Positions 1,251 through 12,404 of a stretch of DNA of 41,377 bases are shown here, one piece after another. Both the position numbers and the translations under genes were made by a program. The stretch covers positions 1 to 41,377 of the IMG/VR virus record IMGVR_UViG_3300049734_000105, one strand, 5' to 3'. Below the pieces are notes generated by a model that made no database searches, was not told the DNA's origin, and worked only from the letters and a program-made list of their open reading frames with translations. The first letter of the stretch is position 1. The number at the start of each line of letters is the position of its first letter. The DNA is from a virus.

Positions 1251-1924
1251 ACCAGCCCCAGCCGCTTGCGGGTGCGCTGGAACCGTTCAAACTCCTCCCG
1301 GGCCAGCTCCCGCAACGCGGCAGCCTTGGCTTCGGCGTCTCGGACTTCCGCCTCTGTCGCGGCAACCTCTTCGGGTGATGGGCCAACGGGGGCCAGCACG
1401 ATCAGGGCGTTCGTTGCCGGGTCGGTCGTCAGCGTCTCCGTGGCCGACTTCATGACCAGGGTTGCAGTCATTTGGTTGGCTCCCTCAAACACGGGCGACA
1501 CCTCAATCAAGTCTAGGCCGGCGATCAACCGCTTGGCCCCCAGCGCCTTCCACTCGTCCGTCATCTCGGCCGTCTGGACGCCCCGGAACCCGATGGACCA
1601 CTCGCCATGTTCGCCCATTTCCTTGGTCGTCTCAAATGCGTCCCGGCCACGGGTGGTCCCCATAAAGAAGCGGCCGTCCACAATGGCCTGGTTGTTCTCC
1701 ACCCGAATGACGCCCTTACCCGCTGGGGGTTGGCCGGCCAGTACGGAGTCATGCCGGTAGGCCGACAACTTGACCACGGTTCCCGATTTGATGGCCCCGG
1801 GGAGAATCACGTCCCCCTCACGGTCAACGATGTTCATGGTGTTGACCACCGCCGTGACTTCCCCCTTGACCGCGTCCTTCACCTCAAACGGGCCGAAGGA
1901 TTTGGTTTCCAGTGTCTCAGCCAT
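1247..1924 (-). CDS. Prohead (capsid maturation) protease, HK97 type
   Basis: A serine protease of the U35/S78 herpesvirus-assemblin-like family that cleaves the scaffold part of the capsid protein during prohead maturation. Visible signatures are VNTMNIVDREGDVILPGAI, the histidine in YRHDSVLAG, the serine in EWSIGFRG and the IEVSPVFEGAN segment that closes the active site. ATG 1924 (AETLETKSFG) is preferred because GGGAGG lies 7 bases upstream; an in-frame ATG at 1951 would overlap the portal gene further. From ATG 1924 it overlaps the portal stop by 8 bp. The length of about 225 aa is normal for the family. The C-terminus is an alanine/glutamate-rich helix. Confidence 0.92.
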   Translation of the reverse strand: MAETLETKSFGPFEVKDAVKGEVTAVVNTMNIVDREGDVILPGAIKSGTVVKLSAYRHDSVLAGQPPAGKGVIRVENNQAIVDGRFFMGTTRGRDAFETTKEMGEHGEWSIGFRGVQTAEMTDEWKALGAKRLIAGLDLIEVSPVFEGANQMTATLVMKSATETLTTDPATNALIVLAPVGPSPEEVAATEAEVRDAEAKAAALRELAREEFERFQRTRKRLGLV

Positions 1925-3248
1925 TGCCATTCCTCCCGTTGCCGTTGCCATTCGCCATCACCCGGTCCCGGATGGCGGCTAAGTCCTGGTCCACCGCTGG
2001 AGCGGCGGCCGGCTCCTCCGGTTCGTCCGGTGCTGGAGCTGGACCCAAGTACACCTGACGGCTGGGGTCCACCTCGAGGCCGAGCATCGCTTGTGCCCGG
2101 TCCACCCGTAACACGCCTTCCTTGACCAGCAGCGCAATGCGTTCGGCCTTCTCTTTTTCCTCTTCCTGGGAAGCCGAGAAATCCGAGGTATCAAACCGCA
2201 CCCGATACCGCTTAAGCTGGGTGACGAAATCGGGGAGGAGTTGCATTCCTAACTGTTTGGCCATGTCGCTTTGCATCGGCCTGATACAGCTATTCCACGC
2301 CTCTTTTCGCAGTTCCCGCATGGTTGCGCCAACCTTGGTCTGCTGGAGGCCGGAGCCGAACCCAACGACGGCGGCCGGTACGCCCAGTGCCGCACACACC
2401 CGCTCCTCTGCGATGTCCCGCAGATTGCCCAACATCAAGTTGTTGGGGTCATACCCGAACTGCTGAACGTCGGTGGGAACCCCGAACGCCAGCCATTCGC
2501 CCCGGCGTGACCCGGTGAAAGACTTCATGTGTTCCTTGACCCGGTCCACCTCTTGCTTATTCATCCGGCTATCGGCCGACTTGGGCGACACAATCCCACC
2601 AGGGACACCCATGTTGCCGAGGATGGCGGCCGAGAACGATGACGCCTCTTCGTCGGTGAATACCTCCCGCAACAACGGCTTCAGGGCCGACATACCCTTC
2701 CGGGGGTTGCACGGATCGAGGCCGGCCCGGAAGTGGACCACGTTTTCCACCTTGAGGTTGACCGGTGGCTTACCGTTCTCCGGGCGATATTCGTAGTGGG
2801 AGATGAACGCCGAACCGTCGTCGGGCCACTTGGGGTCAACAAGGAAGTGGGGTAGATACCAGTAGCCCAACACCTTACCGAACGAGTTGCGTACCTTCTG
2901 CCAGTAAGCATTCCCGTCAAAGCAGAACGACAGCACAGACGCCTTCCATAACAGGGAATCCCCGTAGTACGGATTAGGCCGCATGAGTGTGGCGGTCAGG
3001 GCGTTTTCTTCGTCCTCTTCCCACACGTCGCCCCGTCTCCGCTGCACAATGGCTTCGGCCTCGGTGAAGTTCCGGAGTATCCAGTTCACCGGGGACATAA
3101 CCACGTTGGCGTCCAGCGCATCGTCGGGCGACTTGGTGTACAGTCGCACGTACCCGTTCTGGTTCTGGGGGATAAACCCGTCATCTGTGATGACGGTAAA
3201 CCCCTTGGTCTGCACCTTTGGCGGTGACAGTCTATCGAGCCAACCCAT
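1917..3248 (-). CDS. Portal protein (HK97 family)
   Basis: A dodecameric head vertex protein through which DNA is packaged. The start at ATG 3248 has GGAGGGG just upstream and overlaps the preceding stop as TAATG. The sequence shows the family pattern: VNWILRNFTEAEAIVQRR near the N-terminus, GNAYWQKVRNSFGKVLGYWYL, HFRAGLDPCNPRKGMSALKPL, then the clip/stem region VCAALGVPAAVVGFGSGLQQT. The C-terminus is proline/alanine-rich and ends in an asparagine-glycine repeat (NGNGNGRNGNG). The length of 443 aa is typical. It lies directly between terminase and protease. Confidence 0.93.
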   Translation of the reverse strand: MGWLDRLSPPKVQTKGFTVITDDGFIPQNQNGYVRLYTKSPDDALDANVVMSPVNWILRNFTEAEAIVQRRRGDVWEEDEENALTATLMRPNPYYGDSLLWKASVLSFCFDGNAYWQKVRNSFGKVLGYWYLPHFLVDPKWPDDGSAFISHYEYRPENGKPPVNLKVENVVHFRAGLDPCNPRKGMSALKPLLREVFTDEEASSFSAAILGNMGVPGGIVSPKSADSRMNKQEVDRVKEHMKSFTGSRRGEWLAFGVPTDVQQFGYDPNNLMLGNLRDIAEERVCAALGVPAAVVGFGSGLQQTKVGATMRELRKEAWNSCIRPMQSDMAKQLGMQLLPDFVTQLKRYRVRFDTSDFSASQEEEKEKAERIALLVKEGVLRVDRAQAMLGLEVDPSRQVYLGPAPAPDEPEEPAAAPAVDQDLAAIRDRVMANGNGNGRNGNG

Positions 3249-3403
3249 TAACCCCTCCGCATCCCGAGATAGAGCAGCACCAGCCCTAACGCGATCTTGC
3301 CGGCCGGTGGATAGACGCCCCATGCGCCCCACGCCACCAGGATTCCCCCCCCGTAGACGTGCGCGTCCCGGAAGTCGGGCCACCAGTGCCTTAGAGAAGC
3401 CAT
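3248..3403 (-). CDS. 51-aa membrane protein between terminase and portal
   Basis: A short reading frame from ATG 3403 to a TAA that overlaps the portal ATG as TAATG. Its start overlaps the end of the large terminase gene by 13 bp. The product begins MASLRHWWPDFRDAHVYGGG, followed by two hydrophobic stretches (ILVAWGAWGVY and IALGLVLLYLGM) and a basic tail. This suggests a hairpin or single membrane span. It is coupled to both neighbours, which favours a real gene. No family is recognised; small membrane proteins at this position occur in other siphoviruses but their role is unknown to me. Confidence 0.6.
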   Translation of the reverse strand: MASLRHWWPDFRDAHVYGGGILVAWGAWGVYPPAGKIALGLVLLYLGMRRG

Positions 3404-5079
3404 GACGCCTCCTCCGGAATCAGTATGGCCCGGCTCATGGCGTTAATGAGCGCCGACGCCGGGTCAATCTTGTTTTCTGGCCGTTCCTTGCGGGGGAAAA
3501 TGTTGTCGTTCGCATCTTCCTTGACTGTTACGTTGGACATCGCCCACGCCAACACCGGGTCACCGTTGTGGTGGAACTGGCCCGACTTGACCAACGCCTC
3601 CAGGGACTTCATGGGGTCGGACAGGTTCTTGACGTTCTGCTGTAGCTCAATCGCGGTGATGCCTTCGCGGGTGAGTTCCTGAATCATCTCTTGAGACGCC
3701 CACGGATCAAACGCGGCCTGTTCGATACCGTGCGCCCGGGCGTCCTCTAACAAGTCGTCCCGGATGCGGCTGTAGTCCGTCATATCGCCATCGGTCACGG
3801 TCAACCACCCATCGTGCGCCCACGGGAGGTAGCGGGTGTTTCTGGGGTCGTTGACGGTGGACTCCGGGAGATAGTGGCGGCCGAAGGCGTAGTAATGCGG
3901 TACGTCGTCAACCATCTGTCGGAATACCCGGACGATGGACGCAATGTCCAACTTGCTGGCCAAGTCGCCGCCCGCGAAGCACGGACAGTCCGCAAACCGT
4001 TCGGGTCTCAGTGAGCGGTCGGCTTGCCGGTGCCACCATTCCATATTCATCCAGGCCGCCCGGGCGGTGACCCAGACGTTAAGGTGCTTGGTCTTGAATA
4101 CGTTCTGGTGGCGGGAGCTGGCAACGGCTTCGGCTTGTTTCTCTTTCAGGAAGGATTCGGAGACGGATACCCCGTAATTCGGGTTGGCCTTCCGCAACGA
4201 TTCCTCGGCCGCCCAATCGTCCCCTTCGTCTATGGACCATATCACCCCGAACAACCGGTCGTCGGGGTTGGTCCCGTCCAGCATCTTTTGTACGTCCTCG
4301 TGCATCGCATAACACGGCCCGGAGATGTCGGACCCGGCCGTGGTGATGACCAGCACCAGCGGTTGACGCCGTGCCCCCATACCGGTCACCATCGTGTCAT
4401 AGAGCCGGGCGTCGGGGTGTTCGTGGTATTCGTCAACGATTGCGAGGGATGGGCTTGCCCCGTCTCCGGGGTTCCCGATCAGCACTTCAAACCGGTCCCC
4501 GGTATCCAGCCGCACCAGGTTGGAAGCGTTGACCGTGATTCCGAAGTGAGACAGGAACTCCGGGGACCGTTGCGCCATCAGCTTGGCCGGCCGGAACACT
4601 TCCCACGCTTGTTTTTCGGTGGTGGCCCCACTGTAGACTTCCGCTCCGGGTTCCCCTTCGGTCAAGGCGTCCAACCCCTCCACCGCACCCAGCACAGACT
4701 TGCCGTTTTTCCGGGGAACTTCCACGTAAGCTTTCCGAAACCGGCGAAAGCCGGTGTCTTTCTCCCGGAACCCGTGGATATTCGCCCGAACAAAGCATTG
4801 CCACGGCTCAAGGTGAATTTTCACCTTTTCCGGGGCCCTGGGGTCAGGGATGGCCCAATGACCTTTGACGTGAGGGAACAGCTCCGCGAACTTGCACGCC
4901 CGTTCCGCCTTCTCGGGTACGAAATGGTAGGGCCAGTCGGTGCGGTCGGTGTCGGAGAGGAAACGTTGGCAGGCTAACCGGGTCCAGCGACATGCGGGGA
5001 TACTTCCGGAGACGACAGAACGGGCGTACTCCAACGCCGTGTCTACGTGAGGCGTCGAACTCTTACCCAAGGGCCTCAA
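3391..5079 (-). CDS. terL: Terminase large subunit
   Basis: The ATPase-nuclease motor that cuts and packages DNA. Walker A is the divergent VPRKNGKS at residues 121-128, Walker B is LAIVDEYHE at 212-220 with D216/E217, and ITTAGS follows as the coupling motif. The nuclease half shows GGDLASKLDIAS (D372, D378), AAFDPWAS (D458) and a C-terminal NKIDPASALINAM. The length of 562 aa is normal for this HK97-like type. The start shown is TTG 5079, overlapping the small subunit gene; a second in-frame TTG at 5070 is also possible, so the N-terminus is uncertain by a few residues. Confidence 0.95.
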   Translation of the reverse strand: MRPLGKSSTPHVDTALEYARSVVSGSIPACRWTRLACQRFLSDTDRTDWPYHFVPEKAERACKFAELFPHVKGHWAIPDPRAPEKVKIHLEPWQCFVRANIHGFREKDTGFRRFRKAYVEVPRKNGKSVLGAVEGLDALTEGEPGAEVYSGATTEKQAWEVFRPAKLMAQRSPEFLSHFGITVNASNLVRLDTGDRFEVLIGNPGDGASPSLAIVDEYHEHPDARLYDTMVTGMGARRQPLVLVITTAGSDISGPCYAMHEDVQKMLDGTNPDDRLFGVIWSIDEGDDWAAEESLRKANPNYGVSVSESFLKEKQAEAVASSRHQNVFKTKHLNVWVTARAAWMNMEWWHRQADRSLRPERFADCPCFAGGDLASKLDIASIVRVFRQMVDDVPHYYAFGRHYLPESTVNDPRNTRYLPWAHDGWLTVTDGDMTDYSRIRDDLLEDARAHGIEQAAFDPWASQEMIQELTREGITAIELQQNVKNLSDPMKSLEALVKSGQFHHNGDPVLAWAMSNVTVKEDANDNIFPRKERPENKIDPASALINAMSRAILIPEEASWLL

Positions 5080-5449
5080 ACGGGTTCGCCTGGACCGAGG
5101 CCGGAACCTTCACCCGGGAGCGGTCGGCCGGCGTCATACCGAAGGACTTATACAGTCGGTCCAATCGTGCCCCCTCCGCACCGGATAGTTCCCCGTGCCG
5201 GTTCTCTTTGGCTATCAGCCGGATCATGCTGGTAAAGGCGTAGCGATCACTTTCCAGGGCCACCCCGTCCACTAGCTTGGCCTGGACTTCAACCCAGAGC
5301 TGCTGTAGGGTCGGCTCCAATCCGGCGTCCGGTCCACCCAGCAACGCATTGTTTAGCGGCTCGCCCTCTCTGGCCCGGCCCCGGGCAGGGTTGTGGTCAA
5401 ACGCTCCCACCATTTGGAGTATGCGAGTCGGCTTGCGAGGTCTGGGCAT
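5063..5449 (-). CDS. terS: Terminase small subunit, P27 type
   Basis: This 128-aa protein precedes and overlaps the large terminase gene by 17 bp. It has the arrangement of the phage terminase P27 family: a basic proline-rich start (MPRPRKPTRILQMVGAF), a phrase close to NPARGRAREGEP, a helical middle (LQQLWVEVQAKLVDG, RYAFTSMIRLI) and a C-terminal segment SFGMTPADRSRVKVPA. The small subunit recognises the packaging site and recruits the large subunit. The gene begins the late morphogenesis operon. Confidence 0.88.
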   Translation of the reverse strand: MPRPRKPTRILQMVGAFDHNPARGRAREGEPLNNALLGGPDAGLEPTLQQLWVEVQAKLVDGVALESDRYAFTSMIRLIAKENRHGELSGAEGARLDRLYKSFGMTPADRSRVKVPASVQANPFEALG

Positions 5450-5572
5450 CGGCTACCGAAAAGTTTAGTCCCGGCTAATGAAAATAACACATGCTACCTA
5501 AAGGCGAAACGGGGAAGCACAAAAACGCCTGGTCACGCGGGATTTGGGGGTGCCACCCTGGAAGAAAACCGG
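5450..5572 (-). promoter_or_regulatory. Gap upstream of the terminase genes; possible weak promoter
   Basis: No gene is seen in these 123 bp. The part near the terminase start is distinctly AT-rich. On the minus strand it reads TTCGCC, 16 bases, TATTTT, a poor match to a sigma70 promoter (3 of 6 and 4 of 6). It also contains an AGGCG/CGCCT inverted repeat spanning a T-rich loop. This could be where late transcription starts or where a phage activator works. The evidence is weak. Confidence 0.25.
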
Positions 5573-6286
5573 TCACGCCACCTTGCTTGCTAGCCCACGA
5601 TATGGGCGCACTGGCACATGCGCCAGAACGTCCCCGTGGACCTTGAGCCTAGCGTAGTGAGTCGGGCAAATCCCGTTCGCGTGCCGAGCCATTCTGTCAC
5701 ACCCATTCACCGTACACGTTCTAGTGGGATTCCGCCTATGTGGAGTGCGCGCAGACATGCGTAGGCCGTGCTCTTGGCGGCAGTCGGTAGAGTCGCATAT
5801 CGTCCTAGGTCTATTCCAAGACAGCACTGCGGTGTCGCATATGACGCAGTTGGACTTATATGGTGTTTTCCCCTTGGCCTTCTCGTGCATAGCCGACCCG
5901 CCTAGGTGGGCGATCCTTTGTAGGTGTTTCTTATTGCACAACTCGGAAGCGCACAAATCACCACCGCGACCCCTTTTCCTCCCGAACCACCTGCCGCATT
6001 CCACGCACTGAGTGATATTCTTGCTCTTGGTGGACACTGGTAGGGCTTGCCTGAGGGTCGGCAGCGCATCCGGTGAGAACCATTCGCCCATCAACCGGTG
6101 TTTGTCTAGCATCCTATGGAGATGGCTTTCCAGGTCAAGGATATCGCATGTAGCTAGCACCTCTAGGCCGCTGCCGCACATACATTCAAGGTCCCTAATT
6201 CTCTTGGGTAGATTGGCGGTGATCCCCACCTTGATAAGCCCGCCTGGCTGTTGCAGTACATAGAGCAGCGTCCTTGCTTTACTCAC
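5573..6286 (-). CDS. GIY-YIG/T5orf172-like protein with zinc-finger tail
   Basis: 237 aa from GTG 6286, overlapping the HNH stop as GTGA. Residues 1-80 match the T5orf172 branch of the GIY-YIG nuclease superfamily: LLYVLQQ and IKVGIT in place of GIY and YIG, then the arginine of PKRIRDLE, the glutamate of DLESHLHRML and the family signature GEWFSP. Three or four cysteine/histidine clusters follow (CVECGRWF, CASELC, CVICDTA, CDSTDC, CTVNGCDRM, CPTHY), which probably bind zinc and DNA. The layout resembles a free-standing homing endonuclease. It lies next to two HNH genes just upstream of the terminase genes. Confidence 0.75.
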   Translation of the reverse strand: MSKARTLLYVLQQPGGLIKVGITANLPKRIRDLECMCGSGLEVLATCDILDLESHLHRMLDKHRLMGEWFSPDALPTLRQALPVSTKSKNITQCVECGRWFGRKRGRGGDLCASELCNKKHLQRIAHLGGSAMHEKAKGKTPYKSNCVICDTAVLSWNRPRTICDSTDCRQEHGLRMSARTPHRRNPTRTCTVNGCDRMARHANGICPTHYARLKVHGDVLAHVPVRPYRGLASKVA

Positions 6287-6666
6287 ACAGACTCCTTTGT
6301 TGGGTTTCCGAATCCACCGTGTTCTCGGGCCGTCCTCCTGCTATGGCATGACTTACACCTACCTATCCCGTTGTTGGGGTCTAAGGCTAAGTGGCGGTGT
6401 GTTCTACGGGGTTTGATGTGATCGGCTTCAGTTGATGGGTTGGTCTTACAGTCACAGCAGATAGGATGCTTTCGAAGTACTGTTTTCCTCCACTCCCGGT
6501 GTTCCGGGGTGGTGTAGTAGTGTCTCCCCTTCTTGTCGTCTATGGCTTTCCGTCTAGCGTAGTCCGATCCTATGGACTTGTGGTGGGTGGGACACCTGGT
6601 AGCGGGCCGGCGTACCAGTTCCCTACAACCAGGGTGGGAACAGGGACGGGGTGGGCTAAGTGGCAT
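6283..6666 (-). CDS. HNH endonuclease
   Basis: 127 aa. The N-terminus carries a zinc knuckle (CSHPGCRELV then CPTHH). The C-terminus has the HNH core: CCDCKTNPSTEADHIKP with the DH pair, NNGIGRCKSCHSRRTAREHG with the second cysteine pair and final histidine. HNH proteins next to terminase genes are known to be required for packaging in some HK97-type phages, while others are homing enzymes. Here it is 0.8 kb upstream of the small terminase and flanked by further nuclease genes, so either role is possible. Confidence 0.85.
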   Translation of the reverse strand: MPLSPPRPCSHPGCRELVRRPATRCPTHHKSIGSDYARRKAIDDKKGRHYYTTPEHREWRKTVLRKHPICCDCKTNPSTEADHIKPRRTHRHLALDPNNGIGRCKSCHSRRTAREHGGFGNPTKESV

Positions 6667-7090
6667 CAGTGGAGGAAGTCGTCACGTCTCCCTCCCCCTC
6701 TGGGGTGTCGGCTGGAGCAGGGTATAACCGAGGCAGGTTCCGTATGAGGTCGGCGTAGGCGTCCGAGGCGTATGACGCACCCTTCTTCACAGTGCCGTTA
6801 ATGGTCTCACGCTCGACTTCGTCATAGGCATGAACTCGCAGCTTGGCGCACCGTTCAATGGTCTCTTGCTCTACTTGGGCCGCTATCTCGGGTCGGATGG
6901 CCTCACGGATAGCGGAAACCAGAAGGACAAGGCATTCGTCGCAGTTGTCCGACCAGAACACGGCCAGGCAGTGGTGTCCGACGCCGAGGTCGCCGGTTAT
7001 TGTGTCGTGTCCAAGAGCGAACTCTTTCCAGCACCCCCTCGTCTCTCTCACCCTCTGGAGTAGGGCCGGGTCTACGGTATGGTTAGCCAC
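6656..7090 (-). CDS. Hypothetical protein
   Basis: 144 aa from GTG 7090, overlapping both neighbours by a few bases. The central part is helical (SAIREAIRPEIAAQVEQETIERCAKLR) and the C-terminus is a disordered run rich in proline, glutamate and threonine. Several histidines and cysteines (LGVGHHCLAVFW, NCDECLVLL) could be metal ligands, but no known family is recognised. It sits between two HNH genes and appears co-transcribed with them. Confidence 0.55.
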   Translation of the reverse strand: MANHTVDPALLQRVRETRGCWKEFALGHDTITGDLGVGHHCLAVFWSDNCDECLVLLVSAIREAIRPEIAAQVEQETIERCAKLRVHAYDEVERETINGTVKKGASYASDAYADLIRNLPRLYPAPADTPEGEGDVTTSSTDAT

Positions 7091-7619
7091 GGGACGCCGC
7101 CCGTTTCTTTCTAGCCCATTCCCGCCCCCAGGTGCGCCGGCGTTCGGGGTTTTCTTCTCTCCACTTCCGGACCGACGCCTTGATTGACTCCGAATACTTG
7201 GCGTAATGCTTCTTGCGGTGGAGCCGCATGCACGCCCTACAGGTGCGGCCCTTCTTGCGGGTAATAAGGTTGTCGGGTGTCAGTTCATGACCGCGCTTAC
7301 AGTGGGTTGCCTTGCGGTGGGGCCGGGTCCGCTGGACGATGGAGGCCATGCCACGGCTTACGTTCTCACCATGCGTTACCGGCTCCAGGTGTGCCGGGTT
7401 AACACATGCTCGATTCCGGCAGAGGTGATCTATCTCTAGACCGGACGGAATGGGACCAACCAGCTTCTCATAGATTAGCCGGTGGGCGTACACGTCTCCG
7501 TGCTTCCCGTATCCGGCCTTTGACCGTGTCGTGGTCCACACCCAACAGCCCGTCCCATCATCCTTGGTGAATCGGGTCATGGGGTCCGGCAGCCTAGCGC
7601 CGTTTCTCTTGGCCCTCAT
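7083..7619 (-). CDS. HNH homing endonuclease (HNH_3 type)
   Basis: 178 aa. It opens with CWVWTTTRSKAGYG and has the family core AHRLIYEKLVGPIPSG, followed by LEIDHLCRNRACVNPAHL and EPVTHGENV, the signature of free-standing HNH homing endonucleases. A second cysteine cluster (CKRGHELTPDN, CRACMRLH) precedes a very basic helical tail (ENPERRRTWGREWARKKR) likely to bind DNA. It overlaps the upstream regulator gene as ATGA. Such genes usually move as selfish elements rather than serving the phage. Confidence 0.9.
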   Translation of the reverse strand: MRAKRNGARLPDPMTRFTKDDGTGCWVWTTTRSKAGYGKHGDVYAHRLIYEKLVGPIPSGLEIDHLCRNRACVNPAHLEPVTHGENVSRGMASIVQRTRPHRKATHCKRGHELTPDNLITRKKGRTCRACMRLHRKKHYAKYSESIKASVRKWREENPERRRTWGREWARKKRAASRG

Positions 7620-9884: not shown

Positions 9885-12134
9885 CTAGAGCCGCCCGATG
9901 CGCGGAAATAGCTTGCCAATCATCTTGATGTCGCCCTTGTAGCCGACGATGATTTTCTGCTCCCGCTTGGGGAACTTCCGCATGTCCAGCGTTTTCTTGG
10001 CCTGGGCCAGTCGGGTAAACTCTGCCTCGAGGTAGACAATCCGGTTGTACACGCTCAGTCCGTGGTCCCGCATCCAGATTTCGGTTTCTGCCTCGTGACA
10101 GTGGTACGCACCCTTGGTGTCGCGGCTGTCCCCGGTCATCACCACGAAGAACCGATTGGTTGATAGGCAGTTTAGTGCCTTCTCATAACCAGCGAAGAGA
10201 GTGTCACGAAACTCCTCGTAACTGGAGAGCATGTTGATTTCACCCTCGGGCGTCTCACCGTCGTAGTCCCGGTACCGCTCAACCCGGTAGTACGGTGGGC
10301 AACTGAACACCAGGTCATACTCACCCTCAGGCTCGTAAACTGAGCTGTCGGCCTGAACCCATCGCACGTCCTTGAACTCGGAGCAGAGTTTGTTGTTGGC
10401 GTCGCACTGGTTCTGCCGAATCTCGGTTGCCAGGTACTCATAACCGCTTGCGCCGGTGACGAATCCCATCTGAACGCCGCCACCGAACGGGTTGTAGACC
10501 CTGCCGTGGTCGGGGGTGAAAAACCGCAGAACGACTTCACAAGCCACGGGATCAAGTACCGAGGCGTTGCCGTTGTGGGAGCGTCCGGTGACGACGTTCG
10601 CAAAACCGGCCTCACCTTGCCAGCATCCCTCGCGGGTGGCGAATGCGGGGTTGGGAATCCCCTCCCTGACGCCGGCGTCCTCGATACGCGTGCGCCACTC
10701 ACCCTTGAGGCGCAACCAATCGCCCTTCGTGCTGTTCCACACGTTGGTCATGGTGATGTGCGCCAACGTCTTCCTGCGGTGTACTGCTGGGTCACCCTGG
10801 AGCATGTAGTGGAAGCCGGACATCTTGAGGTAGGTCTCAAACCCCAAGCTTTCGAAAACGGCGGGCGTTTCAAAGGTGCTTTTCGGGTTGGTGGTCATCA
10901 GGGCCGGGAAGCCGTCGGTGTTCCGGGCCAACACCTCCTGGGCCATCTCCCGGTAGAGCTGGGGCGTGTAGACATCAGGCCGGATGACGGATTGCAACAG
11001 ACAGAACTCCCCCACCTCGGTGTTGTTCTGGAAGGTGAAGAACCCGGCAAACTTCCCGTCTAACAGCAGGATGATTGCGGAGTGTCGCTGCATGTTCTTG
11101 CGGGCCGCACGGTGGGCGATGCCGTCCTCAAGGGCCAGCTTCGCCACATCCGCCTCAAATCCCGAACCAGTCACTGACTTTACGTACTCGAAACAAACGT
11201 CACCCCTGTCGGTAGCCCTGAGGTTGGGGTCATTCTCCTCGGGCGCGAACATCGTTTCCTGTAGGCTGCGCGGCATTGGTTCCTTTCTGGGTTTTGCGGG
11301 TGCGCCGCATTGGTCGGGACACTTGCCACAGTGCCCGAGGTAAACGGTGGAGTCGTGCAGTGATACCAATGTACCGCCACCCACTGAGTCCTCGCGTCGG
11401 GTGGCTAAGATGTCGCCACTAAGCAGCCGGGGATTGTTGGGGCTGACCCGCAACGGGTTGTCGATCAGTGGACGGAGGGTGAGCAAATAGTCCTGTTTTG
11501 CCTTCGCCGCCCGCCCCCAGGCGGTGTCCCCGTACTGGCACGTCACCACGCGGTTGATGCTCAGGATGCCGTGGTCCCCAATGCGGTTGAATTGGCGGAC
11601 TCGGTGCGCCAGCTCTGCGTCGGTATCTAGCCCACTGGTGGAGGTGTTGACCACCACATCTAGGTCCATCATCTGGGAAAGGTGGTCGTCGGTTAGGGTC
11701 ATCCAGTGCTTGGTGATAATCACAGCCGTCATTTCAGCGGGACGCAGCCGGCGGATTACGGAGAGGGTGTGGTTCCAGTCGTGGCACGGGTCGCCCATCA
11801 CCCCAATCCGATACCAGGTTGCCGGGAATGCGCGGAGCTGGCGAACAATGGCGTCCCGGTGCTCCCACTGGTCAATAAACCCTCTCTTTACGCTGTACCC
11901 GAATGCGATTCCGTACCTAGTGGCAATGCGGTAGGCGTAGCAGTCGTCATAACACCCCGCCTCCGGCCTGGCCCGCATCCCCATCGTACAACCCTTAATG
12001 GTGTCAACGTCAATGACGCCCTTGAGGTTGACGGCGGCGGTGAGGGCCTCATGGTAGCGGCGTGGTGTCCGCTCAACTTCCAGCAAGGGCAATTGCAAAC
12101 CACCAGCCCGTCGGGTTGGGGTAGCGAGCGTCAC
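9885..12134 (-). CDS. Three-domain fusion: radical-SAM-like barrel, GNAT-like domain, DNA amino-methyltransferase
   Basis: 749 aa from GTG 12134 (GTGA overlap). Residues 40-290 resemble a radical-SAM-type TIM barrel: C49, C61 and C65 (CX11CX3C, in EAGCYDDCYAYRIA), strands WYRIGVMGDP, AVIITKH, VVVNTSTSG and ILSINRVV, and a second cluster C269/C272/C276 (CX2CX3C). Residues 310-450 look GNAT-like (SAIILLLDGKFAGFFTFQ, VFESLGFETYLKMSGF) but lack a clear RxxGxG acetyl-CoA loop. Residues 525-735 are an N4/N6 amino-methyltransferase: motif I VYNPFGGG (D to N), motif IV SCPPYY at 611-616, then VVMTGDSRDTKGAY. The known analogue is Mu Mom, a GNAT-related DNA adenine modifier. A self-contained DNA base hypermodification role is inferred. 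It could also be an unusual methyltransferase with accessory domains. Confidence 0.75.
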   Translation of the reverse strand: MTLATPTRRAGGLQLPLLEVERTPRRYHEALTAAVNLKGVIDVDTIKGCTMGMRARPEAGCYDDCYAYRIATRYGIAFGYSVKRGFIDQWEHRDAIVRQLRAFPATWYRIGVMGDPCHDWNHTLSVIRRLRPAEMTAVIITKHWMTLTDDHLSQMMDLDVVVNTSTSGLDTDAELAHRVRQFNRIGDHGILSINRVVTCQYGDTAWGRAAKAKQDYLLTLRPLIDNPLRVSPNNPRLLSGDILATRREDSVGGGTLVSLHDSTVYLGHCGKCPDQCGAPAKPRKEPMPRSLQETMFAPEENDPNLRATDRGDVCFEYVKSVTGSGFEADVAKLALEDGIAHRAARKNMQRHSAIILLLDGKFAGFFTFQNNTEVGEFCLLQSVIRPDVYTPQLYREMAQEVLARNTDGFPALMTTNPKSTFETPAVFESLGFETYLKMSGFHYMLQGDPAVHRRKTLAHITMTNVWNSTKGDWLRLKGEWRTRIEDAGVREGIPNPAFATREGCWQGEAGFANVVTGRSHNGNASVLDPVACEVVLRFFTPDHGRVYNPFGGGVQMGFVTGASGYEYLATEIRQNQCDANNKLCSEFKDVRWVQADSSVYEPEGEYDLVFSCPPYYRVERYRDYDGETPEGEINMLSSYEEFRDTLFAGYEKALNCLSTNRFFVVMTGDSRDTKGAYHCHEAETEIWMRDHGLSVYNRIVYLEAEFTRLAQAKKTLDMRKFPKREQKIIVGYKGDIKMIGKLFPRIGRL

Positions 12135-12404
12135 GCCGCACCCCGCAACTCGCGAAGTCGTTTCTTTGCGCGCTCTATGGCCTTCTGCCGCCACCGTGGG
12201 GCAAAGGGCCTCGGGTGTAGCTCGCCGTCGGTCCAGGTGTCACCGCACCCGGTACAGGTGACCGTGAGCCCGTACCACTCCTGAAACCTGGCGAGCATGC
12301 GCCGACGGCGCTTGCAGACCGGGCAAGCGAACACACGACACCGCTCCTCGGAGTATCGGGCGAAGTTGATATGCACCCACTGGGCGAGCGTCACGCCGCA
12401 CCCC
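12124..12404. repeat. 21-bp direct repeat at two stop/start junctions
   Basis: GCGAGCGTCACGCCGCACCCC occurs identically at 12124-12144 and 12384-12404, exactly 260 bp apart. Each copy holds the GTGA overlap between two genes: the end of one ORF coding for -GAA and the beginning of the next coding for MTLA. The 87-aa gene between the copies could have been inserted or duplicated by recombination at this junction sequence. Confidence 0.8.
12131..12394 (-). CDS. Zinc-ribbon protein
   Basis: 87 aa from GTG 12394 (GTGA overlap) and ending in a GTGA overlap with the fusion gene. CPVC and CTGC form a zinc ribbon (FACPVCKRRRRM, TVTCTGCGDTW), followed by a basic helix AIERAKKRLRELRG. It is flanked by the 21-bp direct repeats, so it may have been added to the operon as a unit. 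It is translationally coupled to the fusion gene and could be a DNA-binding partner, but that is inference. Confidence 0.65.
   Translation of the reverse strand: MTLAQWVHINFARYSEERCRVFACPVCKRRRRMLARFQEWYGLTVTCTGCGDTWTDGELHPRPFAPRWRQKAIERAKKRLRELRGAA

Follow-up and report, generated by a model that had tools for sequence, protein, structure and literature searches.

A phage protein joining a divergent radical-SAM-like barrel, a GNAT fold and a methyltransferase-like domain, and its possible role in DNA base hypermodification

The window, meaning the whole stretch of 41,377 bases that was analysed, belongs to a virus of the tailed-phage type; its genes include those for portal, large terminase, tape measure, HNH nuclease, Holliday-junction resolvase, lysozyme and a Gp157-like protein. 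A Band_7/SPFH-domain protein is also encoded by the phage (20493-21023, minus strand). Between positions 9885 and 12134, on the minus strand, lies a gene whose product carries three domains on a single chain: a radical-SAM-like barrel (residues ~45-300), a GNAT fold (~333-485) and a methyltransferase (MTase)-like domain (~486-769). Residues are numbered in a 769-residue frame, and the numbers are those of an earlier note on this DNA plus 20. The features of the gene are as follows.

9885..12134, minus strand: fusion gene, putative 749-residue form, with a GTG start and a GTGA overlap with the upstream stop
11295..12062, minus strand: domain 1, divergent radical-SAM barrel, residues ~45-300 (AlphaFold, Foldseek, homology to a PF04055 family)
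11940..11990, minus strand: cysteine cluster 1, C69-X11-C81-X3-C85-YA, presumed [4Fe-4S]/SAM loop (invariant in 58/58)
11307..11330, minus strand: cysteine cluster 2, C289-X2-C292-X3-C296-G, presumed to be an auxiliary Fe-S or Zn site where the barrel ends (invariant in 58/58)
10740..11198, minus strand: domain 2, GNAT fold without the RxxGxG pyrophosphate loop, residues ~333-485 (AlphaFold, Foldseek)
9885..10739, minus strand: domain 3, amino-MTase-like, motif order I then IV, residues ~486-769 (phrog matches, ParB-MTase relatives)
10476..10493, minus strand: MTase motif I, NPFGGG (YNPFGGGV in 105/105)
10287..10304, minus strand: MTase motif IV, SCPPYY ([TSA]CPPYY in 105/105)

The open reading frame extends over 9885-12194 on the minus strand and has 769 codons when counted from its first in-frame GTG, at 12194. 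A further GTG is found at 12134, and the TGA within its GTGA is the stop codon of the gene upstream. Because of this overlap, and because conservation in the alignment of relatives begins only at residue 47 of the 769-residue frame, the 749-residue start is likely the true one. The open reading frame that the earlier note placed at 9885-12134 thus exists, and its shorter GTG start is favoured.

The upstream gene (12131-12394, minus strand) encodes a small protein with two CxxC pairs and sub-threshold matches to Lar and DUF7351, and the sequence TGCGGCGTGACGCTCGC is repeated at the starts of both this gene and the fusion gene. As a part of the system, this Com-like zinc-finger gene was rejected, since it was found in only one of the 39 loci examined. 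Among the recurrent neighbours of close relatives, within 6 kb, none stands out as a conserved third partner; by sequence, they appear to be genes for replication, packaging and C5-MTases. Common metabolites (SAM and acetyl-CoA) should therefore suffice, and the lack of a conserved third gene would fit a self-sufficient enzyme.

Residues 40-312 gave nothing in single-sequence searches of Pfam, NCBIfam and PDB sequences. PF04055 was absent from the Pfam families matched by 56 family members, and the barrel itself has no PF04055 match. DUF5131 was not accepted as the barrel family (three members only, best E=0.13), and the domain-by-domain search of PDB sequences yielded nothing beyond artefacts (PPR and TALE repeats, scorpion toxins) and GNAT and MTase matches below threshold. 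Structure prediction was more informative. The AlphaFold model of the barrel, built from an alignment of 56 sequences, has a pLDDT of 95.4 and a pTM of 0.92, and its nine Foldseek matches in the PDB at E≤0.001 are all radical-SAM enzymes (probability 1.00), led by EpeE, lysine 2,3-aminomutase, BlsE, PFL-AE, QueE, BioB, NifB and MiaB. This agrees with the radical-SAM-like barrel described in the earlier note. However, the TM-scores are moderate, at ~0.4, and TIM barrels of a non-radical kind follow further down the Foldseek list, so the evidence from the fold alone is good but not conclusive, and the modelled barrel appears only distantly related to known radical-SAM structures.

The cysteines of the barrel are strongly conserved. 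While the canonical radical-SAM spacing is CX3CX2C, the three invariant cysteines of the barrel are spaced CX9-12CX3C, and this motif, followed by YA, is present in 125 of 130 barrel open reading frames. C69, C81, C85, C289, C292 and C296, which correspond to the two clusters singled out in the earlier note as C49/C61/C65 and C269/C272/C276, are all invariant in 58 of 58 non-identical relatives, against a mean column identity of 45%.

A census of viral and prokaryotic contigs yielded 105 distinct GNAT-MTase systems, and one IMG/VR scan gave 169 confirmed stretches from relatives. GNAT and MTase lie within a single open reading frame in 104 of the 105. The barrel is part of the same frame in 51 systems; in 16 it is the gene immediately upstream, and in 21 the one immediately downstream. 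Split homologues, for which the earlier note proposed to search, thus do lie side by side in other phages. In a further 12 systems the downstream gene is a canonical radical-SAM gene instead of the barrel. Altogether, a radical-SAM-type gene is fused to GNAT-MTase, or lies within 400 nt of it on either side, in 100 of the 105 systems, and four of the five without such a partner are cut short by the end of the contig. That barrel, GNAT and MTase form a three-part functional unit is therefore well supported.

The prokaryotic contigs with a name that carry the system come from Smithella, Desulfobacterales, Desulfobacula, Massilibacteroides (which keeps no more than a radical-SAM remnant) and a spirochaete MAG; these few hosts are presumably anaerobes for the most part, the spirochaete MAG being of uncertain physiology. 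Among named phage isolates, neither the barrel nor the GNAT domain was found at E≤1, and an unannotated human-gut phage record, MT835521, holds a relative of the canonical radical-SAM partner with 63% identity. Several loci depart from the common arrangement. At L056, a second, partial GNAT-like open reading frame (5209-5871; 82 bits to the family profile) directly follows the GNAT-MTase gene. At L134, a divergent barrel (4687-7352) lies without GNAT-MTase between ParB-like and PAPS-reductase-like genes, and a search for relatives of this barrel returned only itself. At L145, from Riemerella columbipharyngis, an MTase of the NPFGGGV type (5683-7323) is fused to a different N-terminal domain that looks, by eye, like a GNAT; no radical-SAM gene was found at this locus, and the same phage-like contig encodes an 889-residue Cas9-like protein (1481-4150) that has an HNH_4 domain (PF13395) and whose first RuvC motif seems to be altered.

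The gene that replaces the barrel carries GCxHDCxYCYA, the canonical CX3CX2C radical-SAM motif, and five of five copies scanned score above the PF04055 (Radical_SAM) cut-off. An NCBIfam scan of one copy places it close to the PA0069/Rv2578c families, with a weak relation to spore photoproduct lyase; another of the 12, at L143 (Massilibacteroides), is apparently only a C-terminal remnant. On the GNAT-MTase tree the canonical type is scattered and stands as sister to the divergent type in L138/L151 and L147/L025/L122; the branches with good support require no fewer than five changes of partner type. Comparison of the barrel with the canonical family by hhalign gave a score of 44.9 (E=1.6e-5) with the CYA motif aligned. 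None of 100 column-shuffled controls scored above 21.6, and the reversed alignment reached 22.1; by this profile comparison the two families are detectably homologous. Their repeated replacement in one slot suggests that barrel and canonical enzyme have the same function, and it is the strongest reason for calling the barrel a radical-SAM enzyme. There is thus strong evidence that the barrel is the radical-SAM partner of GNAT-MTase. The canonical family was also found beside ParB-MTase genes that lack a GNAT domain, at 33 loci (for example L171, 3568-4845), which suggests a second association of radical-SAM and DNA MTase. Radical-SAM action on DNA may, therefore, not need an acyl donor, a point that counts against the Elp3-like proposal made below.

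The middle third of the chain, described in the earlier note as a GNAT-like segment, does have that fold in the AlphaFold model (pLDDT 90.2). GCN5/PCAF lead its Foldseek matches in the PDB (E ~5e-6, probability 1.00), and there are 187 fold matches at E≤0.001, of which every one listed is a GNAT, GCN5/PCAF included. The acetyl-CoA pyrophosphate loop, [RQ]xxGx[GA], is present in none of 65 family members, so that the missing loop noticed in the single sequence is shared by all 65.

Domain 3 matches phrog_12517 (E=4e-38) and phrog_498, a DNA methyltransferase (E=1.5e-34). Related MTase domains occur in named phages as ParB-MTase fusions, in Listeria, Enterococcus, Mycobacterium, Haloarcula and other phages. 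The motif order I-IV is kept, although the letters, NPFGGGV and CPPYY, differ from the classical FxGxG and (D/N/S)PPY; the cysteine that replaces D/N/S in motif IV is also seen in the ParB-MTase relatives. Both motifs that the earlier note listed for its methyltransferase are retained in all 105 systems. Its D-to-N change in motif I proves specific to the GNAT-linked subfamily: the residue is N in 105 of 105 members (YNPFGGGV), whereas ten of ten ParB-MTase-type relatives keep D. As regards known defence systems, membership was rejected, the only matches being weak ones to the MTase domain (MADS mad2, E=3e-6, 24 bits; a type II MTase model, E=1e-6, 26 bits, for the L065 relative).

Some relatives of this domain have other partners. 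In phages P2559S (L217, 3536-5177) and ZRG1 (L218, 3494-5339), an adenosylmethionine-decarboxylase gene overlaps the MTase gene, whose motif I reads FAGDTVFG, versus DPFAGGSVRG in other relatives. Such pairs could add to DNA an aminopropyl group taken from decarboxylated SAM, although for many phage SpeD homologues the substrate is ornithine or arginine and not SAM (PMC10407285). In Erythrobacter phage ZS04 (L222, 1550-3988), Pam4 (L225, 1012-3501) and AlanGrant (L221, 1-2275), either a PLP-enzyme-like domain interrupts the MTase between its motifs I and IV or a gene of the PLP family immediately adjoins the MTase gene, an arrangement that is possibly another base-hypermodification combination. 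The linkage to decarboxylase and PLP enzymes and the altered motif I therefore raise the possibility that this MTase fold is a hub for the transfer of non-methyl groups.

In sum, the earlier note's picture of a radical-SAM-like barrel, a GNAT fold and an amino-MTase in one chain is supported, by AlphaFold and Foldseek for the first two domains and by sequence matches for the third. Its further idea, three successive activities on a single base that would serve to evade restriction, is conjectural. Two observations go beyond that note: the substitution by a canonical radical-SAM enzyme, and a parallel with Elp3. In Elp3, a radical-SAM domain is followed by a GCN5-type domain, and the cysteine spacing is likewise non-canonical. 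Acetyl-CoA is hydrolysed in the acetyltransferase domain, and the acetate is tunnelled and attached to tRNA uridine 34 by means of the 5'-deoxyadenosyl radical (PMC13315578). About half of the present family has radical-SAM and GNAT domains in one chain, and by analogy Elp3 appears to be its closest functional precedent. Since neither of the Elp3 models TIGR01211 and PF16199 (Radical_SAM_C) is matched at E≤1, and no Elp3 chain is among the best 50 PDB fold matches of the barrel, working like Elp3 is put forward as a hypothesis and not as membership of its family.

These considerations lead to a tentative proposal, to which we give somewhat less than an even chance, that the fusion is a phage DNA-base hypermodification enzyme of Elp3-like type (radical SAM plus GNAT), aimed at DNA by its MTase-derived domain. 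The chemistry hypothesized is as follows. The MTase-like domain, to judge from its family, would bind phage DNA and flip out an adenine or cytosine. The GNAT domain, to judge from its fold, would bind acetyl-CoA or another acyl-CoA and release or present the acyl group. The barrel would hold a [4Fe-4S] cluster through C69, C81 and C85 and cleave SAM to the 5'-deoxyadenosyl radical, as its fold, homology and canonical replacement suggest. This radical, on the Elp3 model, would then activate either the acyl fragment or a C-H bond in the base or in its methyl group, and a carbon substituent would be joined to the base. The base so formed would be bulky and may thwart restriction or other defences of the host. 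The three-part unit is what the comparative data support well; the acyl-CoA donor, the DNA substrate, the attached group and the protection from restriction are what we infer. More doubtful is the full claim of a first DNA counterpart of Elp3, widespread in uncultured phages, in which a SAM-derived radical would put an acyl-CoA-derived carbon unit on DNA adenine or cytosine while a repurposed DNA methyltransferase presents the base.

The same domains might be employed differently. In a stepwise scheme, which is conceivable but on balance unlikely, the MTase-like domain would move a SAM-derived group (methyl, or of aminocarboxypropyl or aminopropyl type) to an exocyclic amine, the GNAT domain would acylate an amine on that group, and the barrel would carry out a separate oxidation, rearrangement or C-C step. 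The strict conservation of both MTase motifs is in line with this scheme, as are the decarboxylase-linked relatives of P2559S and ZRG1 and the PLP-linked ones of ZS04, Pam4 and AlanGrant, and phage enzymes of MTase fold that use altered SAM are known, such as CmoX (PMC12783734). Yet decarboxylase and PLP partners are not among the recurrent neighbours of close relatives, and the substrates of phage SpeD homologues noted above also argue against it. It is improbable that the protein is an ordinary m6A or m4C DNA methyltransferase whose GNAT and barrel are regulatory or structural and take no part in altering the base. By sequence, the C-terminal third does match DNA methyltransferases best, but motif I carries N in place of the relatives' D throughout the family, and the invariant cysteines, the near-obligate linkage and the repeated exchange with a canonical radical-SAM gene together imply catalytic radical chemistry.

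Slightly less probable again is a base modifier that acts on RNA, for example tRNA, instead of DNA. Phages do alter host tRNA, which counts for this reading. Elp3, too, acts on tRNA (PMC13315578). Nevertheless, the closest relatives of the MTase domain are phage proteins annotated as DNA methyltransferases and fused to ParB domains, and the kinship of the canonical radical-SAM partner is with PA0069/Rv2578c and, weakly, with spore photoproduct lyase, an enzyme that acts on DNA. Finally, a Mom-type adenine methylcarbamoylation enzyme with extra domains is very improbable. The two share the GNAT fold, and a Mom protein does occur among the fold matches in viral models, albeit only 33rd, behind generic GNATs. 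Against this, Pfam Mom (PF25680) matches none of 65 members, and hhalign of the GNAT domain with a 68-sequence Mom alignment stayed at noise (probability 0.3%). In addition, at locus L073 (7955-9188) a true Mom gene (PF25680, E=1e-46) lies in the same phage as a GNAT-MTase and radical-SAM pair; they are therefore two different proteins. With Pfam, hhalign and fold search all against it, the kinship with Mom suggested in the earlier note was rejected and, at the level of such comparisons, seems largely refuted.

Hypermodification of phage DNA is mainly known from the hydroxymethylpyrimidine, 7-deazaguanine and Mom pathways and, recently, from carboxymethylcytosine pathways. No description of a radical-SAM/GNAT/MTase phage system was found in the open-licence literature on phage hypermodification, and an earlier mention is possible. 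If the Elp3-like proposal is true, radical-SAM and acyl-CoA chemistry coupled to an amino-MTase fold would be a new route to C-C or C-N modification of DNA bases, perhaps favoured in anaerobic settings, and a large set of 'hypothetical' phage genes would become a testable pathway, for which the two very different forms of radical-SAM partner offer ready one- and two-gene constructs.

Several known systems can be compared with the fusion. Mom of phage Mu (PF25680) has a GNAT-type fold and a role in phage DNA modification in common with it, but Mom stands alone and has no sequence or profile similarity to it; a CxxC gene upstream of the fusion gene recalls Mu com-mom, though it is not conserved. 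The CmoA/CmoX/CmoY system for 5-carboxymethylcytosine is also a phage system, and places a two-carbon acid group on a DNA base, but does so with carboxy-SAM and a C5-methyltransferase, CmoX being an MTase-fold enzyme that uses altered SAM, and without radical-SAM or GNAT (PMC12783734). The ParB-MTase DNA methyltransferases of phages (phrog_498, phrog_12517) have a homologous C-terminal MTase with the same motif order and a CPPY motif IV; where they have an N-terminal ParB and the D of motif I, the fusion family has a GNAT domain, NPFGGGV and a near-obligate radical-SAM partner. The PA0069/Rv2578c/spore-photoproduct-lyase group includes the phage family (PF04055) that replaces the barrel beside GNAT-MTase and is detectably homologous to it, whereas the barrel has CX9-12CX3C in place of CX3CX2C, an extra CX2CX3C cluster and no PF04055 match. 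Elp3, lastly, has a radical-SAM barrel and a GCN5-type domain in the same order on one chain and a nucleobase as its target; the fusion protein matches no Elp3 model, carries an additional DNA amino-MTase domain, is also found split in either gene order, and occurs in phages.
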